The notes below the pieces were generated by a model. It ran no database searches. It was given only the letters and a program-made list of their open reading frames with translations, and was not told where the DNA came from. A stretch of 30,277 nt of DNA, from positions 1 to 30,277 of the IMG/VR virus record IMGVR_UViG_3300025141_014374; one strand, written 5' to 3'. Shown here piece by piece: positions 4,260-21,929 of the stretch. The translations under genes and the position numbers were made by a program. Origin of the DNA: a virus. Positions within the stretch are counted from its first letter, which is position 1; each line of letters starts with the position of its first letter.

Positions 4260-5474
4260 GTGAATGTATGCGTTTTAAATACAGTTTTAGGTTCATGCCA
4301 AAATTTACTGGTTAATCATGATAGGAATGAATTTAAATGGATTGATGGTATTCCACCAAATACTTGGGTATATGGCGATAACAACAACCGCTTAAGTGTT
4401 GATGTATTATTTAAACTTTTAAATAAAAAATTGGATTTTATACCAGAGAATTATCGTAATTCATTGTTAGAACTCAATGTAGATCCAATGGATTTATATA
4501 TGATACGTTGGCAATATGTAATGCCACCAAAAGTTTATATGAAATTTGTTAGAAACGTCTTGGATGCAATCTATGACTGTTTCAATAGTTCGGTGGTGGA
4601 TTACCATAGGAAGATCTATGTGAAGGCACATGACCTTATGGATAACCTTGATAGAGCCGTAATAGATATTGATCTATATCGTACGTTTTTATCAAGTGAA
4701 CGAAACGATACAAATCATAGTACCATAAGAACATTTCAACCAGATTATGATGGTTTTGCTCAACCTGTTAAATATAATCAATTATCATCGCGAACAGGTC
4801 GATTAACTGTTGCATCAGGACCAAGAATTCTTACCCTTAAGAAGAATATGAAAAAAATGATAACATCACGTTATAAACATGGAAAAATTATTTCCCTTGA
4901 TTATGTTTCACTTGAACCTAGGATAGCTAGAGGTATTCACAATAAGATTGTTAAATCTGATATTTATGAAGATTTGATTGAAAGCGCATTGCTTGGAATT
5001 ACAAGGGTTACTGCAAAATCAATTGTATTACCTTATTTATATGGTGCTGCGCCAAAGACAATAGCAACCAGGTTAAGCATGCCAATTACTGTAATTAAAA
5101 ATTACTGTGCTGCACTTGATTCATATTTTAACATTAGTGGTATTGTTAAAAAATTACATAGTGAATTATTGAAACATGGATTCATATACAATTACTATGG
5201 TCGACCATTGAAACCTGATACAACATCATCAAATGTATTGTACAATTATTATATACAATCAACAGGCGTTGATGTTGCAATGTTGGGTTTTAATACAATC
5301 ACTAATTACATTAAAAAAAATAACCTTAAGATTCATCCAATTTTTATTATACATGATTGTCTTATGTTGGATATTCACCCTGATATGGAATGTGAACTTA
5401 GTAATTTAATGAAGATGGGTGAACATATTGATGGTTTTGATATAAAGTTTGTTATGAATAAGGAGATAATATGA
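4260..5474 (+). CDS. Stand-alone family A DNA polymerase core (PolA-like)
   Basis: A 404-residue protein that matches only the polymerase half of DNA polymerase I (the Klenow polymerase domain alone is about 410 residues); no 3'-5' or 5'-3' exonuclease domain is present. Visible family A signatures are SSRTGRLTVASGP (residues 176-188, primer-template contact TGR), motif A LDYVSLEPRIA with catalytic Asp214 and Glu219, motif B R249-VTA-K253 running to Y261-G262 (a Leu occupies the usual Phe/Tyr position), and motif C IIHDCL with His365-Asp366 (the following Glu of the common HDE is Cys). The residues needed for catalysis are therefore present. The start is a GTG; no good Shine-Dalgarno is visible. 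The stop overlaps the ATG of the HD-domain gene (ATGA). A second, unrelated replicative polymerase (DnaE type) is encoded at 22555-26154, so this enzyme may serve gap filling, priming hand-off or repair. Confidence 0.9.
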   Translation: MNVCVLNTVLGSCQNLLVNHDRNEFKWIDGIPPNTWVYGDNNNRLSVDVLFKLLNKKLDFIPENYRNSLLELNVDPMDLYMIRWQYVMPPKVYMKFVRNVLDAIYDCFNSSVVDYHRKIYVKAHDLMDNLDRAVIDIDLYRTFLSSERNDTNHSTIRTFQPDYDGFAQPVKYNQLSSRTGRLTVASGPRILTLKKNMKKMITSRYKHGKIISLDYVSLEPRIARGIHNKIVKSDIYEDLIESALLGITRVTAKSIVLPYLYGAAPKTIATRLSMPITVIKNYCAALDSYFNISGIVKKLHSELLKHGFIYNYYGRPLKPDTTSSNVLYNYYIQSTGVDVAMLGFNTITNYIKKNNLKIHPIFIIHDCLMLDIHPDMECELSNLMKMGEHIDGFDIKFVMNKEII

Positions 5475-6112: not shown

Positions 6113-6417
6113 AAAGAAAGAAAATTTTCCATCCGTTTTTAAAAAATGTTTCGCCTGAATTTGGTGGTAGGAAAAAAACTCATGCCGTTAGCGGGCCACT
6201 TGATGTTCATCAAAATGTTGGTTCTCAGGCTTCACAACGTATGTCTAATGTTATAACACCTGAAGATATTGAAAATGCATATGAATTGGATAAAAAATTA
6301 TCTAATCGTTGGCTAAGAGATAATAAGACAGAAGATGAAGTAGAAGGTGATGATAACCTGGATACGGGTGAATCTTATTTAAGGGAATACATAAAAGCTA
6401 TTTTGGGCGTGATATGA
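6109..6417 (+). CDS. Hypothetical 102-residue protein
   Basis: Not recognised. The N-terminal third is basic (MQRKKIF, GRKKTH) and the rest is acidic and probably helical (PEDIENAYELDKKL, TEDEVEGDDNLD). No signal peptide, membrane segment or cysteine motif is seen. The start is uncertain: ATG 6109 has no Shine-Dalgarno and lies inside an inverted repeat; the next in-frame ATG is at 6241. The stop overlaps the ATG of the following leader-bearing gene (ATGA), so it belongs to the same transcription unit. The open frame and tight coupling support that it is a real gene. Confidence 0.6.
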   Translation: MQRKKIFHPFLKNVSPEFGGRKKTHAVSGPLDVHQNVGSQASQRMSNVITPEDIENAYELDKKLSNRWLRDNKTEDEVEGDDNLDTGESYLREYIKAILGVI

Positions 6418-6809
6418 TTATTAATGAAAATAAATTAAAATATATTATTAGGCAAGAAATTAAGGAACATATGATTCAAGAAGGCAAATTTCAAGATGTG
6501 TTGGGTTGGATTAAAGATAAAGGTAAAAGTGCTATTGATGCAACAAAGGGGTTTCTTTTAAAATTAAAACAAGAACTAGCTGAAACAAAAGAAGGTTCAA
6601 AAATTCTTATAAAAATGGTAAGAGGAAATAAATTAACGCCTGAAGAAAGTAAAGAATTAACTACACAAGCAAAGGATTTAGCAAAGGGCATACCGCTCCT
6701 TGGTTTGGTCGCACTTCCTGGGGGTGGGATTGCAACAATTGCTTTAGTTAAATTGGCTAAAAAATATAATGTTGATTTATTACCAACTTCATTTAAAGAA
6801 AAGGATTAA
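6414..6809 (+). CDS. Small protein with shared N-terminal leader and LETM1-like C-terminal segment
   Basis: A 131-residue protein. Residues 3-23 (INENKLKYIIRQEIKE then HMIQE) form a short amphipathic helix that closely matches the N termini of the proteins at 6816-7079 and 21624-21929, although the rest of the three proteins is unrelated. After the leader comes a Lys-rich helical region, then LTPEESKELTTQAKDLAKG (75-92) and a hydrophobic stretch with LPGGGIATIALVKLAKK and DLLPTSF (101-127). The final PGG...LLPTSF pattern recalls the LP..LPSTF region of LETM1-like proteins; this is a weak resemblance from memory. The hydrophobic part might insert in a membrane. It overlaps the previous gene by four bases. 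Function unknown. Confidence 0.6.
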   Translation: MIINENKLKYIIRQEIKEHMIQEGKFQDVLGWIKDKGKSAIDATKGFLLKLKQELAETKEGSKILIKMVRGNKLTPEESKELTTQAKDLAKGIPLLGLVALPGGGIATIALVKLAKKYNVDLLPTSFKEKD

Positions 6810-6815
6810 TATTAT

Positions 6816-7079
6816 ATGTTAATCACAGAAAAAAAATTAAGACAAATAATACGTAAAGAATTAACGTTATTAATTGAAAAGAAGAAAAAAAATAAAAAGC
6901 TGAAAAAGCGGAAAAAGCGAAAAACAAAATTTGAGGATATTGAAGAAATTAGCACAACAGCAAATGTTGGTAATTTTGGTTGGAATGCGCCTTTAGGGCA
7001 TGGTCAAAAAAGGGATAAAAAATTTATTAGAAAACAAGCCAGTTTCTTTGGCGGTGCTAAACCAATGCATGAAAATTAA
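6816..7079 (+). CDS. Small, extremely basic protein with shared N-terminal leader
   Basis: An 87-residue protein starting MLITEKKLRQIIRKEL, followed by TLLIE and then an unbroken run of about 19 mostly Lys/Arg residues (about 22-40). The leader matches those at 6414 and 21929. The C-terminal half (NVGNFGWNAPLGHGQKRDKKF) is Gly/aromatic-rich. Such a basic block suggests DNA or RNA binding, or an internal head protein packed with DNA. If the leader were cut after the LIE triplet, the product would begin directly with the basic block. It lies 6 bases after the preceding leader-bearing gene. No known family recognised. Confidence 0.6.
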   Translation: MLITEKKLRQIIRKELTLLIEKKKKNKKLKKRKKRKTKFEDIEEISTTANVGNFGWNAPLGHGQKRDKKFIRKQASFFGGAKPMHEN

Positions 7080-14970: not shown

Positions 14971-15670
14971 AATTGAACTTTTCGATGATAAAATTGGTTT
15001 TGTTGGGTACGTTTCCCATATGGGTACCGATGTTACAGTTGTTAATAGTGCTCGTGTCAGTTTCGGTAAGCGTGTTGATGATCTTAATGAGCGTGATAAA
15101 AGGTTAATTAAATACCTCATAAAAAATAAACATACCTCAACATTGGAACACTGTGTAGTTACTTTTAGGTTTAAGGTACCTTTATTTATTAGATCACAAC
15201 ACCATAGGCATCGAACATGGTCTTATAATGAAATATCACGACGATATACAGATTTTAATTTAGAATTTTATGAACCTAAACAATTTAGAAAACAGAGTGA
15301 TTCAAATAGACAGGCTTCTACGGATGAAATATTTGATCCATTAATGTCAATCGGAATGTCAAGCGAAACGGCCGCAAGGGCGTCTGATATCCTTAAAGAA
15401 CACCATGATGCTTCACTTTATATTTATAACAAACTTTTAGAAGCAGGGGTATGTCGCGAACAAGCAAGAGGTGCTTTGCCTCAAAATTTATATACAGAAT
15501 ATTATGGTACAGTTAATCTTAATAATCTATTTAAATTTATTGATTTAAGGATGCACGAAGGAGCACAGTGGGAAATTCAACAGGTTGCTAAGGCATGTTT
15601 GAGTATCACGAAAAAATTATTTCCAGTGACTGTAAAATCTTATATGGAAATTAAAGGGAAAAAAAGTTGA
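14960..15670 (+). CDS. thyX: Flavin-dependent thymidylate synthase
   Basis: A 236-residue enzyme that methylates dUMP to dTMP using FAD and methylenetetrahydrofolate. The family signature RHR-x7-S is present as RHRTWSYNEIS (residues 83-93), followed by RRYTDF. VVNSARVSFGKR (27-38) and ARGALPQNLYTEYYGT (169-184), then LRMHEGAQWEIQ (196-207), are the other conserved blocks around substrate and flavin. An upstream ATG at 14930 is in frame but would add MKKMKKLKKK; the ATG at 14960 gives the usual N terminus (MKNEIELFDDKIGFV) and is preferred. The gene overlaps the previous one by 11 bases. Together with NrdJ it secures dTTP during infection. Confidence 0.93.
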   Translation: MKNEIELFDDKIGFVGYVSHMGTDVTVVNSARVSFGKRVDDLNERDKRLIKYLIKNKHTSTLEHCVVTFRFKVPLFIRSQHHRHRTWSYNEISRRYTDFNLEFYEPKQFRKQSDSNRQASTDEIFDPLMSIGMSSETAARASDILKEHHDASLYIYNKLLEAGVCREQARGALPQNLYTEYYGTVNLNNLFKFIDLRMHEGAQWEIQQVAKACLSITKKLFPVTVKSYMEIKGKKS

Positions 15671-16290
15671 ATACTGTAATTTTTATTTTACATAGTTTAT
15701 TGTGTACTATTGATTTACCACAAACATATGAAGAAATTTATAATCAAGCTCTTTATAATTGTGGCGGTACAAGTGTACCATTAAGCGAGGAACGTGAAAG
15801 TGTAATGAAAGATTTAATATCGGTTGAAAAAAATTTTTTTCTAGATCATCCTGAAATTCCACGCTCCTTAAGAGGAATGTCTATTGCTGCAGCATGTATC
15901 GAAAGTCGTTATAATCCACAAGCTCGTGGCGATTGGCGAACGAATAAACGAGGAAAGCGAGTTGCAAAAGCCCGTGGAGTATTACAGTTGTGGCCTTGGT
16001 GGGTAAAAAAATATAAAATTGATAGAGATGATTATATAAAGGCATCAAATGTTTGGCTGGAAAAGATTGCGTATCAATATCAAAAAAATAAACGCCTTCG
16101 CCGCTGCCCAACTTCTTTTTCAGAAAAACGAAAGTGGATTGCAGCGTGGGTACAAACAACGCGGGGAAATGTTAATCGACAAAATCGTTATCGTTGTTAT
16201 CAAATGCCAAGCCATTATAATTTATTAAAAAGATGGATTAGGAATATTGAACGTGAGAGAATAAATATCAATACAGAATGTGGCTGTTAA
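15667..16290 (+). CDS. Lytic transglycosylase-like (SLT-fold) protein
   Basis: A 207-residue protein with SIAAACIESRYNPQARGDW (72-90), where Glu79-Ser80 matches the catalytic 'ES' of SLT/goose lysozyme-type enzymes, followed by ARGVLQLWPWW (102-112), matching the conserved Gly-x-x-Gln-x-x-P stretch. It would cleave glycan strands of peptidoglycan. The first 15 residues are hydrophobic without a positive charge, so a signal sequence is possible but weak. The start is TTG overlapping the ThyX stop, supported by AAAGGG at suitable spacing. It is rich in Arg and Trp at the C terminus. It is followed by an exported hydrolase and a muramidase, suggesting a lysis role, though a virion-borne role is also possible. 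Confidence 0.72.
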   Translation: MNTVIFILHSLLCTIDLPQTYEEIYNQALYNCGGTSVPLSEERESVMKDLISVEKNFFLDHPEIPRSLRGMSIAAACIESRYNPQARGDWRTNKRGKRVAKARGVLQLWPWWVKKYKIDRDDYIKASNVWLEKIAYQYQKNKRLRRCPTSFSEKRKWIAAWVQTTRGNVNRQNRYRCYQMPSHYNLLKRWIRNIERERININTECGC

Positions 16291-16314
16291 TATATGATAT
16301 AGGGGATAGGCGAG

Positions 16315-17295
16315 ATGATAAAAACAATTAATACAGTAATTATATTACTATTTTTACATAGTATTGCATTTGCAACCAATAATGTAAATATTAGTGAGAT
16401 ATTAATAACTGAAAGTCGTACATATCATAAAACAAAAAGAACATGGAAAAATGTTTATCATGAATTAACAAAAAATGGTAGTTCAGTTAGGGGTGCAACT
16501 TTCATTGCACCAGTCAAAGGAAATGGTTATAACGATTCAAAACACAAGAATGGTGCTAGGAATACAATTATTTTTGTACCACAAAAAACAAATTTTAATG
16601 AAGATGTTGATTTAATATTTTATTTTCATGGTTTAGGTGGTTTTAAAGAAAGGGATTTTAAAACTAGGGTATTAAGACATACAAAAGCATTGGAGGCACA
16701 GGGAAGGAATTTTATAGTTATTATTCCAGAAATGCCTTGGTCTAAAAATACAAATACCCCCAGAACAAGACAGGGGCGTGTTTTTACTAGGAAAGGTCAA
16801 TTTTCAACTTTTGTAAATTCAATTGTAAAAATTACAGTTACATTATTTGAACCATCACCGGTAAAAAGAAATAATTGTATTATGCATAATAAGTGTCAAT
16901 TTAATTTTGGCGATGCTATTTTGATTGGTCACAGTGCCGGAGGAAGTACACTTATGTCTATTTCTAGATCCGGTGGTTTAAATTGGCTTTATAGTGTTGC
17001 AAAAGTGGGATTTGTGAAGGTTATTTTTTCAGATGCATCTTATGGTTATTGGCTTGATATTGCATGGAAATATTTTAAACCGACGGTTACTCAATCAGGG
17101 TTTGTTGTGTTAACGAGAAAATTTGATAGACCACATAAAAATGCGAAAAGATTTTTAAAGAAATTTAGGAAAAAGCCAGAGAATATTAGACATATTGTCT
17201 TTAATAGGAAAATAACACATGCCGATATCGGCGATCAATCATTTAAATGGGCGTATCCTGTTTATGAATCAGGATGCGGCGAAGGAGTAAAATAA
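16315..17295 (+). CDS. Sec-exported alpha/beta hydrolase, putative esterase/lipase
   Basis: A 326-residue protein with a clear signal peptide (positively charged start, hydrophobic core 7-19, likely cut after AFA at 18-20). The hydrolase core shows the oxyanion loop FHGLGG (104-109), nucleophile elbow GHSAGG with Ser207, a likely acid in FSDASYG (Asp240) and a likely catalytic histidine in ITHADIGD (His302), in the correct order for the fold. The substrate is unknown: membrane or outer-membrane lipid, lipoprotein or polysaccharide ester are candidates. It starts after AGGGGATAGGCGAG and its stop overlaps the muramidase ATG (TAATG). Position between two wall-degrading enzymes argues for an envelope-lysis role, analogous to but not clearly homologous with LysB of mycobacteriophages. 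Confidence 0.75.
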   Translation: MIKTINTVIILLFLHSIAFATNNVNISEILITESRTYHKTKRTWKNVYHELTKNGSSVRGATFIAPVKGNGYNDSKHKNGARNTIIFVPQKTNFNEDVDLIFYFHGLGGFKERDFKTRVLRHTKALEAQGRNFIVIIPEMPWSKNTNTPRTRQGRVFTRKGQFSTFVNSIVKITVTLFEPSPVKRNNCIMHNKCQFNFGDAILIGHSAGGSTLMSISRSGGLNWLYSVAKVGFVKVIFSDASYGYWLDIAWKYFKPTVTQSGFVVLTRKFDRPHKNAKRFLKKFRKKPENIRHIVFNRKITHADIGDQSFKWAYPVYESGCGEGVK

Positions 17296-20486: not shown

Positions 20487-21647
20487 ATGGATGATGATTT
20501 TTTAATCCCAGAATTACCGATAGAAGATTTTGAAATACCAGAAGATAAGGATGAAGGTATTGAATCTACACATGGTGGAAGTATAGAGGTCGCGTTTATT
20601 GGGGCCGGCCAGGGTGGTAGTAGAATTGCTGAGGCATTCCATAAATTAGGTTACAGTAAAACAATTGCTGTAAACACTGCAAAGCATGATTTAGCCCATA
20701 TTAATCTACCGGATGAACAAAAATTACATATGTTAGGTGAAGAAGGTGGTGATTGGTATCAGACACATACTCGTGGTGCAGGAAAAGATATGGAAGTTGC
20801 AGCTTCAACAGCATCAGGTAATAGTCAAAAGATATACGATTTAATGCTTAAGATTTTTGGCAAAACAGAACGTATATTTGTTGCCATAGGCGCCGGTGGT
20901 GGTACAGGTGGTGGTTCTTGCAAAATATTAATTGAAATTGCAAAAAAATATCTTACTTATATGGGATTTGATGATGTTGAAAAACGAGTTGGTGTTATAT
21001 GTGCATTACCAACGGCTGGTGAATGTGCATCTCCAAATGTTGCAAGAAATGCAAGCGGGTTGGTATCAGTTTTGTCTGACATGGCGGAAAATAGTGAAAT
21101 CTCACCACTTTTAATTGTTGATAACGATAAAATTAAAAAATTATATCCAGGTTTAACTGTTAAAAAGTTTTGGCCAACTGTGAATAGTACAATTGCAGGT
21201 TTATATCATACCTTTAATAAAATAACGACACTTAGTTCTGGATATACAACTTTTGACCCGGCTGATTATGATTCAATTCTTAGATCACATGGTTGTATGA
21301 TTTTGGGTGTAACAAATGTAAAGGATTGGTCATCGTCAACAAATATTAGCAATGCATTACGTTCAAATCTTTCAAAGACGTTATTGGCTGGCGGATTTGA
21401 TTTATCAACAGCTAAAAGTGTTGGTGTCGTTGTTGTTGGTGGATCAGATATTTTTGAAACGGCAGTTGGCTTAATGGATTCAATAGAATATGGCTTTGAT
21501 ACAATTGCTAATTTGGTCGGTAAAGCATTGGTCCACCGTGGAATATATGAATCTGGCCAAGGTAAACTAAGGGTTTATACAATTGTTAGTGGAATGGATC
21601 GTCCAACAGAAAGAATTACAGAATTAAATAGATTCCATAGAGGATAA
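20487..21647 (+). CDS. FtsZ/tubulin-family GTPase
   Basis: A 386-residue protein. After an acidic, disordered 30-residue N-terminal tail (MDDDFLIPELPIEDFEIPED...) the GTPase domain begins: VAFIGAGQGGSRIAEAF (35-51), the nucleotide-sensing AVNTAKHDL (61-69), the G-box/tubulin signature GAGGGTGGGS (135-144), and a synergy (T7) loop TTFDPADYDSIL (254-265) that retains acidic residues needed to trigger GTP hydrolysis in the neighbouring subunit. It should therefore polymerise and hydrolyse GTP. The FtsZ-like glycine-rich loop and lengths are unlike PhuZ as I remember it. Strong Shine-Dalgarno (AAGGAG) suggests high expression. Phage tubulin homologues elsewhere centre or partition phage DNA. The 3' end overlaps the convergent minus-strand gene by 24 bases. 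Confidence 0.87.
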   Translation: MDDDFLIPELPIEDFEIPEDKDEGIESTHGGSIEVAFIGAGQGGSRIAEAFHKLGYSKTIAVNTAKHDLAHINLPDEQKLHMLGEEGGDWYQTHTRGAGKDMEVAASTASGNSQKIYDLMLKIFGKTERIFVAIGAGGGTGGGSCKILIEIAKKYLTYMGFDDVEKRVGVICALPTAGECASPNVARNASGLVSVLSDMAENSEISPLLIVDNDKIKKLYPGLTVKKFWPTVNSTIAGLYHTFNKITTLSSGYTTFDPADYDSILRSHGCMILGVTNVKDWSSSTNISNALRSNLSKTLLAGGFDLSTAKSVGVVVVGGSDIFETAVGLMDSIEYGFDTIANLVGKALVHRGIYESGQGKLRVYTIVSGMDRPTERITELNRFHRG

Positions 21648-21929
21648 TTCTTCTTTTAATTTTTGAATTTTATTTTTAATTTGTATTATCAATACATCCC
21701 TAACATCTTCCGGCAATAATTCATAAAGATCGCTATCATTTTGTATCATATCTAAAAGGCTCACAAGTTTCTTAAATGCTGCAACATTTAAAGTATTATT
21801 CTTATTATCTAAATATGGAATAGCTTCAGTTGGCTGTGATGATTGAAGTTTAAATTCAATTAAATTGGACAATTCTTCAAATATTATTTTTCTAATCTTA
21901 TTTTTTGTAATTTGTATGTTCATATTCAT
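21624..21929 (-). CDS. Small helical protein with shared N-terminal leader (only minus-strand gene)
   Basis: A 101-residue, almost entirely helical protein. Its N terminus, ITKNKIRKIIFEELSNLIE (6-24), matches the leaders of the proteins at 6414 and 6816, which is the main reason to believe this reading frame. The remainder (NVAAFKKLVSLLDMIQN, LYELLPEDVRDVLIIQIKNKI) is unrelated to those proteins. An alternative ATG is two codons in. The gene converges on the FtsZ-like gene and overlaps its last 24 bases, and it is divergent from the gene at 21977 across 47 bases of AT-rich DNA that must hold its promoter. Function unknown. Confidence 0.6.
   Translation of the reverse strand: MNMNIQITKNKIRKIIFEELSNLIEFKLQSSQPTEAIPYLDNKNNTLNVAAFKKLVSLLDMIQNDSDLYELLPEDVRDVLIIQIKNKIQKLKEELSSMESI

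Follow-up and report, generated by a model that had tools for sequence, protein, structure and literature searches.

A short N-terminal leader shared by unrelated proteins of uncultured T4-like phages as a probable capsid-targeting propeptide

Three leader-bearing genes in the window

The window, by which we mean the whole stretch of DNA analysed, is a linear IMG/VR fragment of 30,277 bases whose gene content points to the baseplate (with a baseplate-wedge gene, PHROG 7145), replication and nucleotide metabolism, and in which no head genes were found among the ORFs or by Pfam and PHROG. Three of its genes, 6414, 6816 and 21929 (Table 1), begin alike. If the first 30 residues of all 36 likely window genes are compared pair by pair, the pairs among these three take ranks 1, 2 and 3 of 630, and their summed score is 130 while the best triangle in 200 shuffles reaches 102 at most. 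The bodies after residue 24, on the other hand, gave no BLASTP match with one another. A triplet of the form (I/L)-x-E, namely IQE, LIE and LIE, follows the helix in the three proteins and, with the start of the leader taken as position 1, falls at 21-23. Thus, the original prediction, made from this DNA alone, of a closely similar N-terminal helix ending near such a triplet on three unrelated proteins is borne out, although the leader proved to belong to a far larger set that lies mostly beyond the window. A leader profile built from other contigs matches exactly these three window genes and no fourth, with HMM scores of 14.0 bits for 6816, 9.0 for 21929 and 6.2 for 6414, the last of which is borderline if taken alone, since 5 out of 3,286 N-termini read in reverse also score 6 bits or more. 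Genes 6414 and 6816 are adjacent in tandem, a frequent arrangement for leader genes.

Table 1. Coordinates of the three leader-bearing genes in the window, with their putative leaders and predicted mature cargoes
Feature	Position	Strand	Details
Gene 6414	6414-6809	+	ORF
Putative leader (propeptide) of gene 6414	6414..6482	+	MIINENKLKYIIRQEIKEHMIQE, predicted cleavage site I-Q-E, residues 21-23
Predicted mature cargo of gene 6414	6483..6806	+	residues 24-131, helical
Gene 6816	6816-7079	+	ORF
Putative leader of gene 6816	6816..6878	+	MLITEKKLRQIIRKELTLLIE, predicted cleavage site L-I-E, residues 19-21
Predicted mature cargo of gene 6816	6879..7076	+	residues 22-87
Gene 21929	21624-21929	-	ORF
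Putative leader of gene 21929	21855..21929	-	MNMNIQITKNKIRKIIFEELSNLIE, predicted cleavage site L-I-E, residues 23-25
Predicted mature cargo of gene 21929	21627..21854	-	residues 26-101, acidic, helical, orphan

What are the bodies behind these leaders? An AlphaFold model of 6414, built from two sequences and of low confidence (mean pLDDT 51.6, too poor for fold search), has residues 5-22 in a helix, with a break at 23-25. The body of 6414 has a single remote relative, L113:747-1130 (28-31% identity, E=1e-6), which shares an operon with two leader genes; close relatives were not found in viral contigs, nor was a Pfam or PHROG family. It had been described as LETM1-like, a label that neither Pfam nor PHROG nor PDB supports and that we reject. 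For the body of 21929, viral contigs gave no relative, and Pfam and PHROG gave no family over the cut-off. The cargo of 6816 consists of a Lys/Arg block and then a conserved tail, EISTTANVGNFGWNAPLGHG...FFGGAKPM. Homologues of this body were found in two other viral contigs (L003 and L073), and an iterative search expanded the family to about 40 ORFs, which in relatives lie upstream of an ssb-like gene and often carry the variant N-terminus LRxYIRExLxxLLE. A near-identical phage (L002) retains the 6816 leader with LFE at the site instead of LIE, and the homologue in L003, the nearest large relative of the window, has a degenerate N-terminus. The tail motif E-I/M-S-T-T-x-x-V-x-G-x-x-T/A-P recurs in a small gene of Flavobacterium phage immuto (L292:4660-4881) that lies two upstream of gp21 with one gene between, and, by iterative search, also near the Peptidase_S77 (S77) gene of LR756508 (L319:8399-8911). 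Homology of this tail to a prohead-core gene is possible.

Other genes of the window also deserve a comment. The frame at 20487-21647 encodes a Tubulin/FtsZ-TubZ-like protein (Pfam Tubulin 3.7e-9, TubZ-like_C 3.4e-7), and since homologues with about 51% identity occur near gp21 in both L265 and L271, such phage tubulins may be frequent within this group. A short DNA polymerase frame of 404 aa with a GTG start (4260-5474) matches only part of the PHROG model, 171-384 on 964-1208 of 1445, and on its sequence is a split or reduced polymerase. Two consecutive genes at 15667-17295 have signal-peptide-like N-termini, and the second of them shows a weak match to platelet-activating-factor acetylhydrolase (E=0.03) and 65% identity to the L003 copy.

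Reuse of the leader on unrelated bodies

Leaders on other proteins were already visible in relatives retrieved by the DnaB protein. A degenerate DNA pattern encoding MxIxxxxL[KR]xIIxEE, searched in IMG/VR viral contigs, hit at least 120 stretches, while the reversed pattern hit 16 chance stretches in the whole collection with one match each. The 166 pattern-matched N-termini, drawn from 201 loci, read M-K-I-T-K-x-Q-L-K-Q-I-I-K-E-E-L/I, then L at 19-20 and E at 21-22, and the consensus vanishes after residue 21-22; the leader as a whole can be written M-K-I-T-K-x-Q-L-K-x-I-I-K-E-E-[LI]-x-x-L-L-x-E. With a threshold of at least 10 bits, the leader HMM matches 295 of 3,286 N-termini, 10 of 2,374 internal segments and none of the 3,286 reversed N-termini. 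The 149 proteins of the pattern-matched set fall into 125 body families, and the 286 leader proteins of the profile-matched set into 233, so that searching the leader as a profile, as had been suggested, recovered hundreds of unrelated carriers in related viruses. As in a capsid-targeting sequence (CTS), a short N-terminal sequence is common to otherwise unrelated proteins. Copies number 1 to 13 per contig and often stand in tandem. At the DNA level, leader genes are 0.69-0.78 identical over codons 1-15 and 0.33-0.37 over codons 16-22, and identity upstream and downstream of the leader is at the background of 0.27-0.31. Therefore, what is kept is a protein leader and not a duplicated block of DNA, and shared upstream DNA, be it a promoter or a duplication block, is rejected as the cause of the similarity.

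Exact leader patterns were found neither in T4, KVP40, P-SSM2, HTVC008M, RM378 and S-RSM4 nor in Flavobacterium phage immuto and Microcystis phage Mel-JY01, and occur three times in LR756508, a 484-kb genome of an uncultured phage. Cultured phages gave weak matches only; those in Streptomyces phage Scarif and Xanthomonas phage SU1 have E above 1, and the Scarif record has 0 pattern matches. Among 84,980 prokaryote genomes, a tight leader pattern hit nine stretches, all of them on contigs of metagenome-assembled genomes (MAGs). One such contig, of 306 kb, has 13 leaders together with an S77 gene and is probably a misbinned jumbo phage genome. Leader-rich contigs in the MAGs Methylococcaceae TMED69 and Halobacteriovorax SP2999 are NHDW01000006.1 (L312, L316, L317) and PBIO01000025.1 (L313, L315). 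A literature search in open-licence papers found neither the leader motif nor an equivalent description, and the consensus is apparently undescribed.

The proteins that carry the leader range from about 40 to 694 aa, and the majority of their bodies are orphans. In L103:10031-10849 (minus strand), the leader is followed by a TseH-like domain (Pfam 9e-15), TseH-like proteins being a family of type VI secretion effectors, and this protein is a candidate for a packaged enzyme. Another leader-bearing protein, L123:2501-3211 (plus strand), has a domain of the PAP2 phosphatase family (7e-9). Further entries for leader proteins in batch scans are DUF6127, FliG_C and a PHROG cytidyltransferase.

The end of the leader and the head-gene clusters

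In T4, gp21 cleaves after L/I-X-E, replacement of the Glu by Asp blocks cutting, and the propeptides of the internal proteins (IPs), 10-19 residues long, are capsid-targeting sequences (PMC9026906). Does the leader end accordingly? An [LI]xE triplet ends at residues 19-24 in 47% of the 125 body families as against 5-8% in later windows of equal size, and its joint occurrence, observed 59 times, exceeds the 28 +/- 3.5 obtained with shuffled columns (maximum 39 in 2,000 shuffles). [LI]xD is rare at the same place (2.4%). At P1', the residue after E, A, G, S and Q are overrepresented and I and L are scarce. A strict [LI]xE is missing from the expected place in roughly half of the leaders, and [LIVM]xE is found in 58-60%. 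An (L/I)-x-E end like that of a capsid-targeting sequence is therefore frequent, including all three window proteins, and not universal. Among orthologs, conservation at the site goes in the expected direction (L 0.41, x 0.05, E 0.36), but the 6 families behind this are too few to serve as evidence. Within the bodies of leader proteins, [LI]xE occurs at 0.77 times its level in other proteins of the same loci (95% CI 0.69-0.85), with values of 1.17 for [LI]xD and 1.22 for E.[LI]; since [LI]..E is depleted about as much (0.79), this is only supporting evidence, and the depletion may partly reflect secondary structure. In 22 major capsid proteins (MCPs) from these clusters, L-[RK]-E is conserved at residue 58-61, next to position 65 where T4 has its site, and therefore the protease of these phages should by homology have the expected specificity.

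A gp21-like protease, for which it had been advised to look, is widely present. A search of 42 large records gave Peptidase_S77 in 31, including 27 of the 37 with the leader pattern and 19 of the 23 of those that are at least 100 kb long. The 10 leader-bearing records in which it was not found are mostly fragments, but three of them (G013, G014 and G015) measure 123-135 kb. It was seen in all 9 control phages, T4-like or jumbo, and in 1 of the 16 records fetched by the reversed pattern, a rough base rate because only 4 of these 16 exceed 70 kb. The co-occurrence of S77 and leader could merely come from both belonging to T4-like phages. As the window is a 30-kb fragment without head genes, we infer the protease of its own phage from its relatives, five of which (G002, G003, G006, G007 and G008) have S77.

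The clusters follow the gene order of T4: portal, core genes, protease, scaffold and capsid. In three loci (L253, L254 and L269) a canonical leader gene stands immediately upstream of the protease, in the gp68 slot, in two others (L256 and L266) one stands immediately downstream of it, and in LR756508 a leader is located 1.4 kb upstream of S77. About 28 of 31 clusters have, one to three places downstream of gp21, a conserved gene whose product of about 140 aa starts with a leader variant, MxKLSRxxLKxIVKECLxEILxEG or MKKSELKxIIKPIVKECIxEVLIEEG. With the full head-cluster protein as seed, an iterative search recruits ordinary leader genes via the N-terminus; the conserved head-cluster proteins have no match in INPHARED. 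Five of the leader-variant clusters come from phages related to the window by DnaB (L273, L274, L277, L279 and L280), in which the T4-type gp17-gp20-gp21-gp23 head module, absent from the window fragment, is present.

A proposed prohead signal and its known counterparts

What, then, is the leader for? We consider it quite likely that what these proteins share at the N-terminus is a T4-type capsid-targeting propeptide, cut by a gp21-type protease after (L/I)-x-E. The capsid-targeting reading, already offered in the original prediction, gains from the unrelated carriers, from the S77 gene in most leader-bearing records, from the gp21 motif at the leader end and from the carriers within the prohead-core cluster. 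While the head is being assembled, the amphipathic helix of 21-23 residues would guide unrelated late proteins into the prohead core; the gp21-type protease (Peptidase_S77) would then cleave after (L/I)-x-E and remove the leader, and the cargo would remain within the mature head and probably be delivered together with the DNA. Core binding, cleavage, retention in the virion and injection of the leader proteins are steps that we infer from sequence.

It is possible to think of the same helix as an uncleaved docking device for some other late structure or process, such as tail or baseplate assembly, the phage tubulin or replication compartment, or a late-transcription factor, with the (L/I)-x-E end being merely part of the helix. 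Such an explanation, which we regard as improbable, can draw on the scattering of carriers beyond the head cluster, where those of the window flank DNA-metabolism and tubulin-like genes, and on the half or so of the leaders that have no strict [LI]xE; however, the internal-protein genes of T4 are likewise scattered outside its head cluster, [LI]xE stands above the column-shuffled expectation with Asp rare there, and leader genes occupy core slots beside gp21. Less probable still is a single paralogous family whose bodies have diverged beyond recognition and whose helix is the conserved core of a fold rather than a transferable tag. Many bodies are indeed small, helical and of unknown function, but 286 proteins in 233 body families, the wide range of lengths, domains as distinct as TseH-like and PAP2, and the abrupt stop of conservation after residue 22 speak against it. 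That the three N-termini of the window became amphipathic helices by chance and have nothing to do with the wider leader, as the low score of 6414 and the orphan state of 6414 and 21929 might suggest, is hardly credible when their pairs lead the ranking with no shuffled triangle close, the profile from other contigs picks exactly these three genes, and 6414 and 6816 form a tandem of the kind common among leader genes.

In T4, a handful of head proteins with a short targeting tag are injected; the packaged or injected proteins of this phage include an inhibitor of host restriction and an ADP-ribosyltransferase. For other phages, to our knowledge, it mostly takes proteomics to learn what is packaged. 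We lean, with some reserve, towards a separate zip code for the prohead, unrelated in sequence to the T4 capsid-targeting sequence, by which a large group of uncultured T4-like phages would package arsenals of diverse proteins. These arsenals would comprise up to a dozen or more proteins, TseH-like and PAP2 enzymes included, on contigs of up to about 290-306 kb and in the 484-kb genome. The packaged and injected proteome of uncultured viruses might then be read from sequence, and a recognisable tag would make hundreds of orphan genes candidates for packaged, possibly injected, proteins. The tag also suggests a mode of cargo swapping, in which 22 residues are kept and the remainder is exchanged, and it could serve for loading foreign proteins into phage heads.

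The leader reads as a capsid-targeting sequence of T4 type by function, with its own consensus and a far wider use. Like the sequence on IPI, IPII, IPIII and Alt, which is cut by gp21, it is a short N-terminal propeptide, here a predicted one, on unrelated cargoes; both start with MK and end at (L/I)-x-E in phages that encode Peptidase_S77 (as most of the leader-bearing records do), and in both cases cargo genes lie outside the head cluster. However, the leader has 21-23 residues where T4 has 10 (10-19 for the IPs), reads MKITKxQLKxIIKEE and not MKTYQEFIAE, comes in 1-13 copies per contig, often in tandem and also on core-cluster genes, and was not seen in the cultured T4-like phages that were searched. 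We do not claim common descent with the T4 sequence, because the leader HMM matches the N-terminus of none of the T4 proteins IPI-III, gp67, gp68, gp21 and gp22. The genes for gp67, gp68 and gp22 lie between portal and MCP, beside gp21, in the same slots as leader genes, and these proteins too have (L/I)-x-E near the N-terminus, whereas the leader-bearing core genes match PHROGs only weakly. A more distant parallel is found in phiKZ and SPN3US: although their motif is S/A-x-E, their propeptides are mostly much longer and homology of the protease is only distant, the prohead protease (gp175 and gp245, respectively) removes propeptides of many packaged or ejected proteins after x-x-E. Among the proteins of SPN3US, gp53 and gp54 are diverged and have identical N-termini (PMC5694885).
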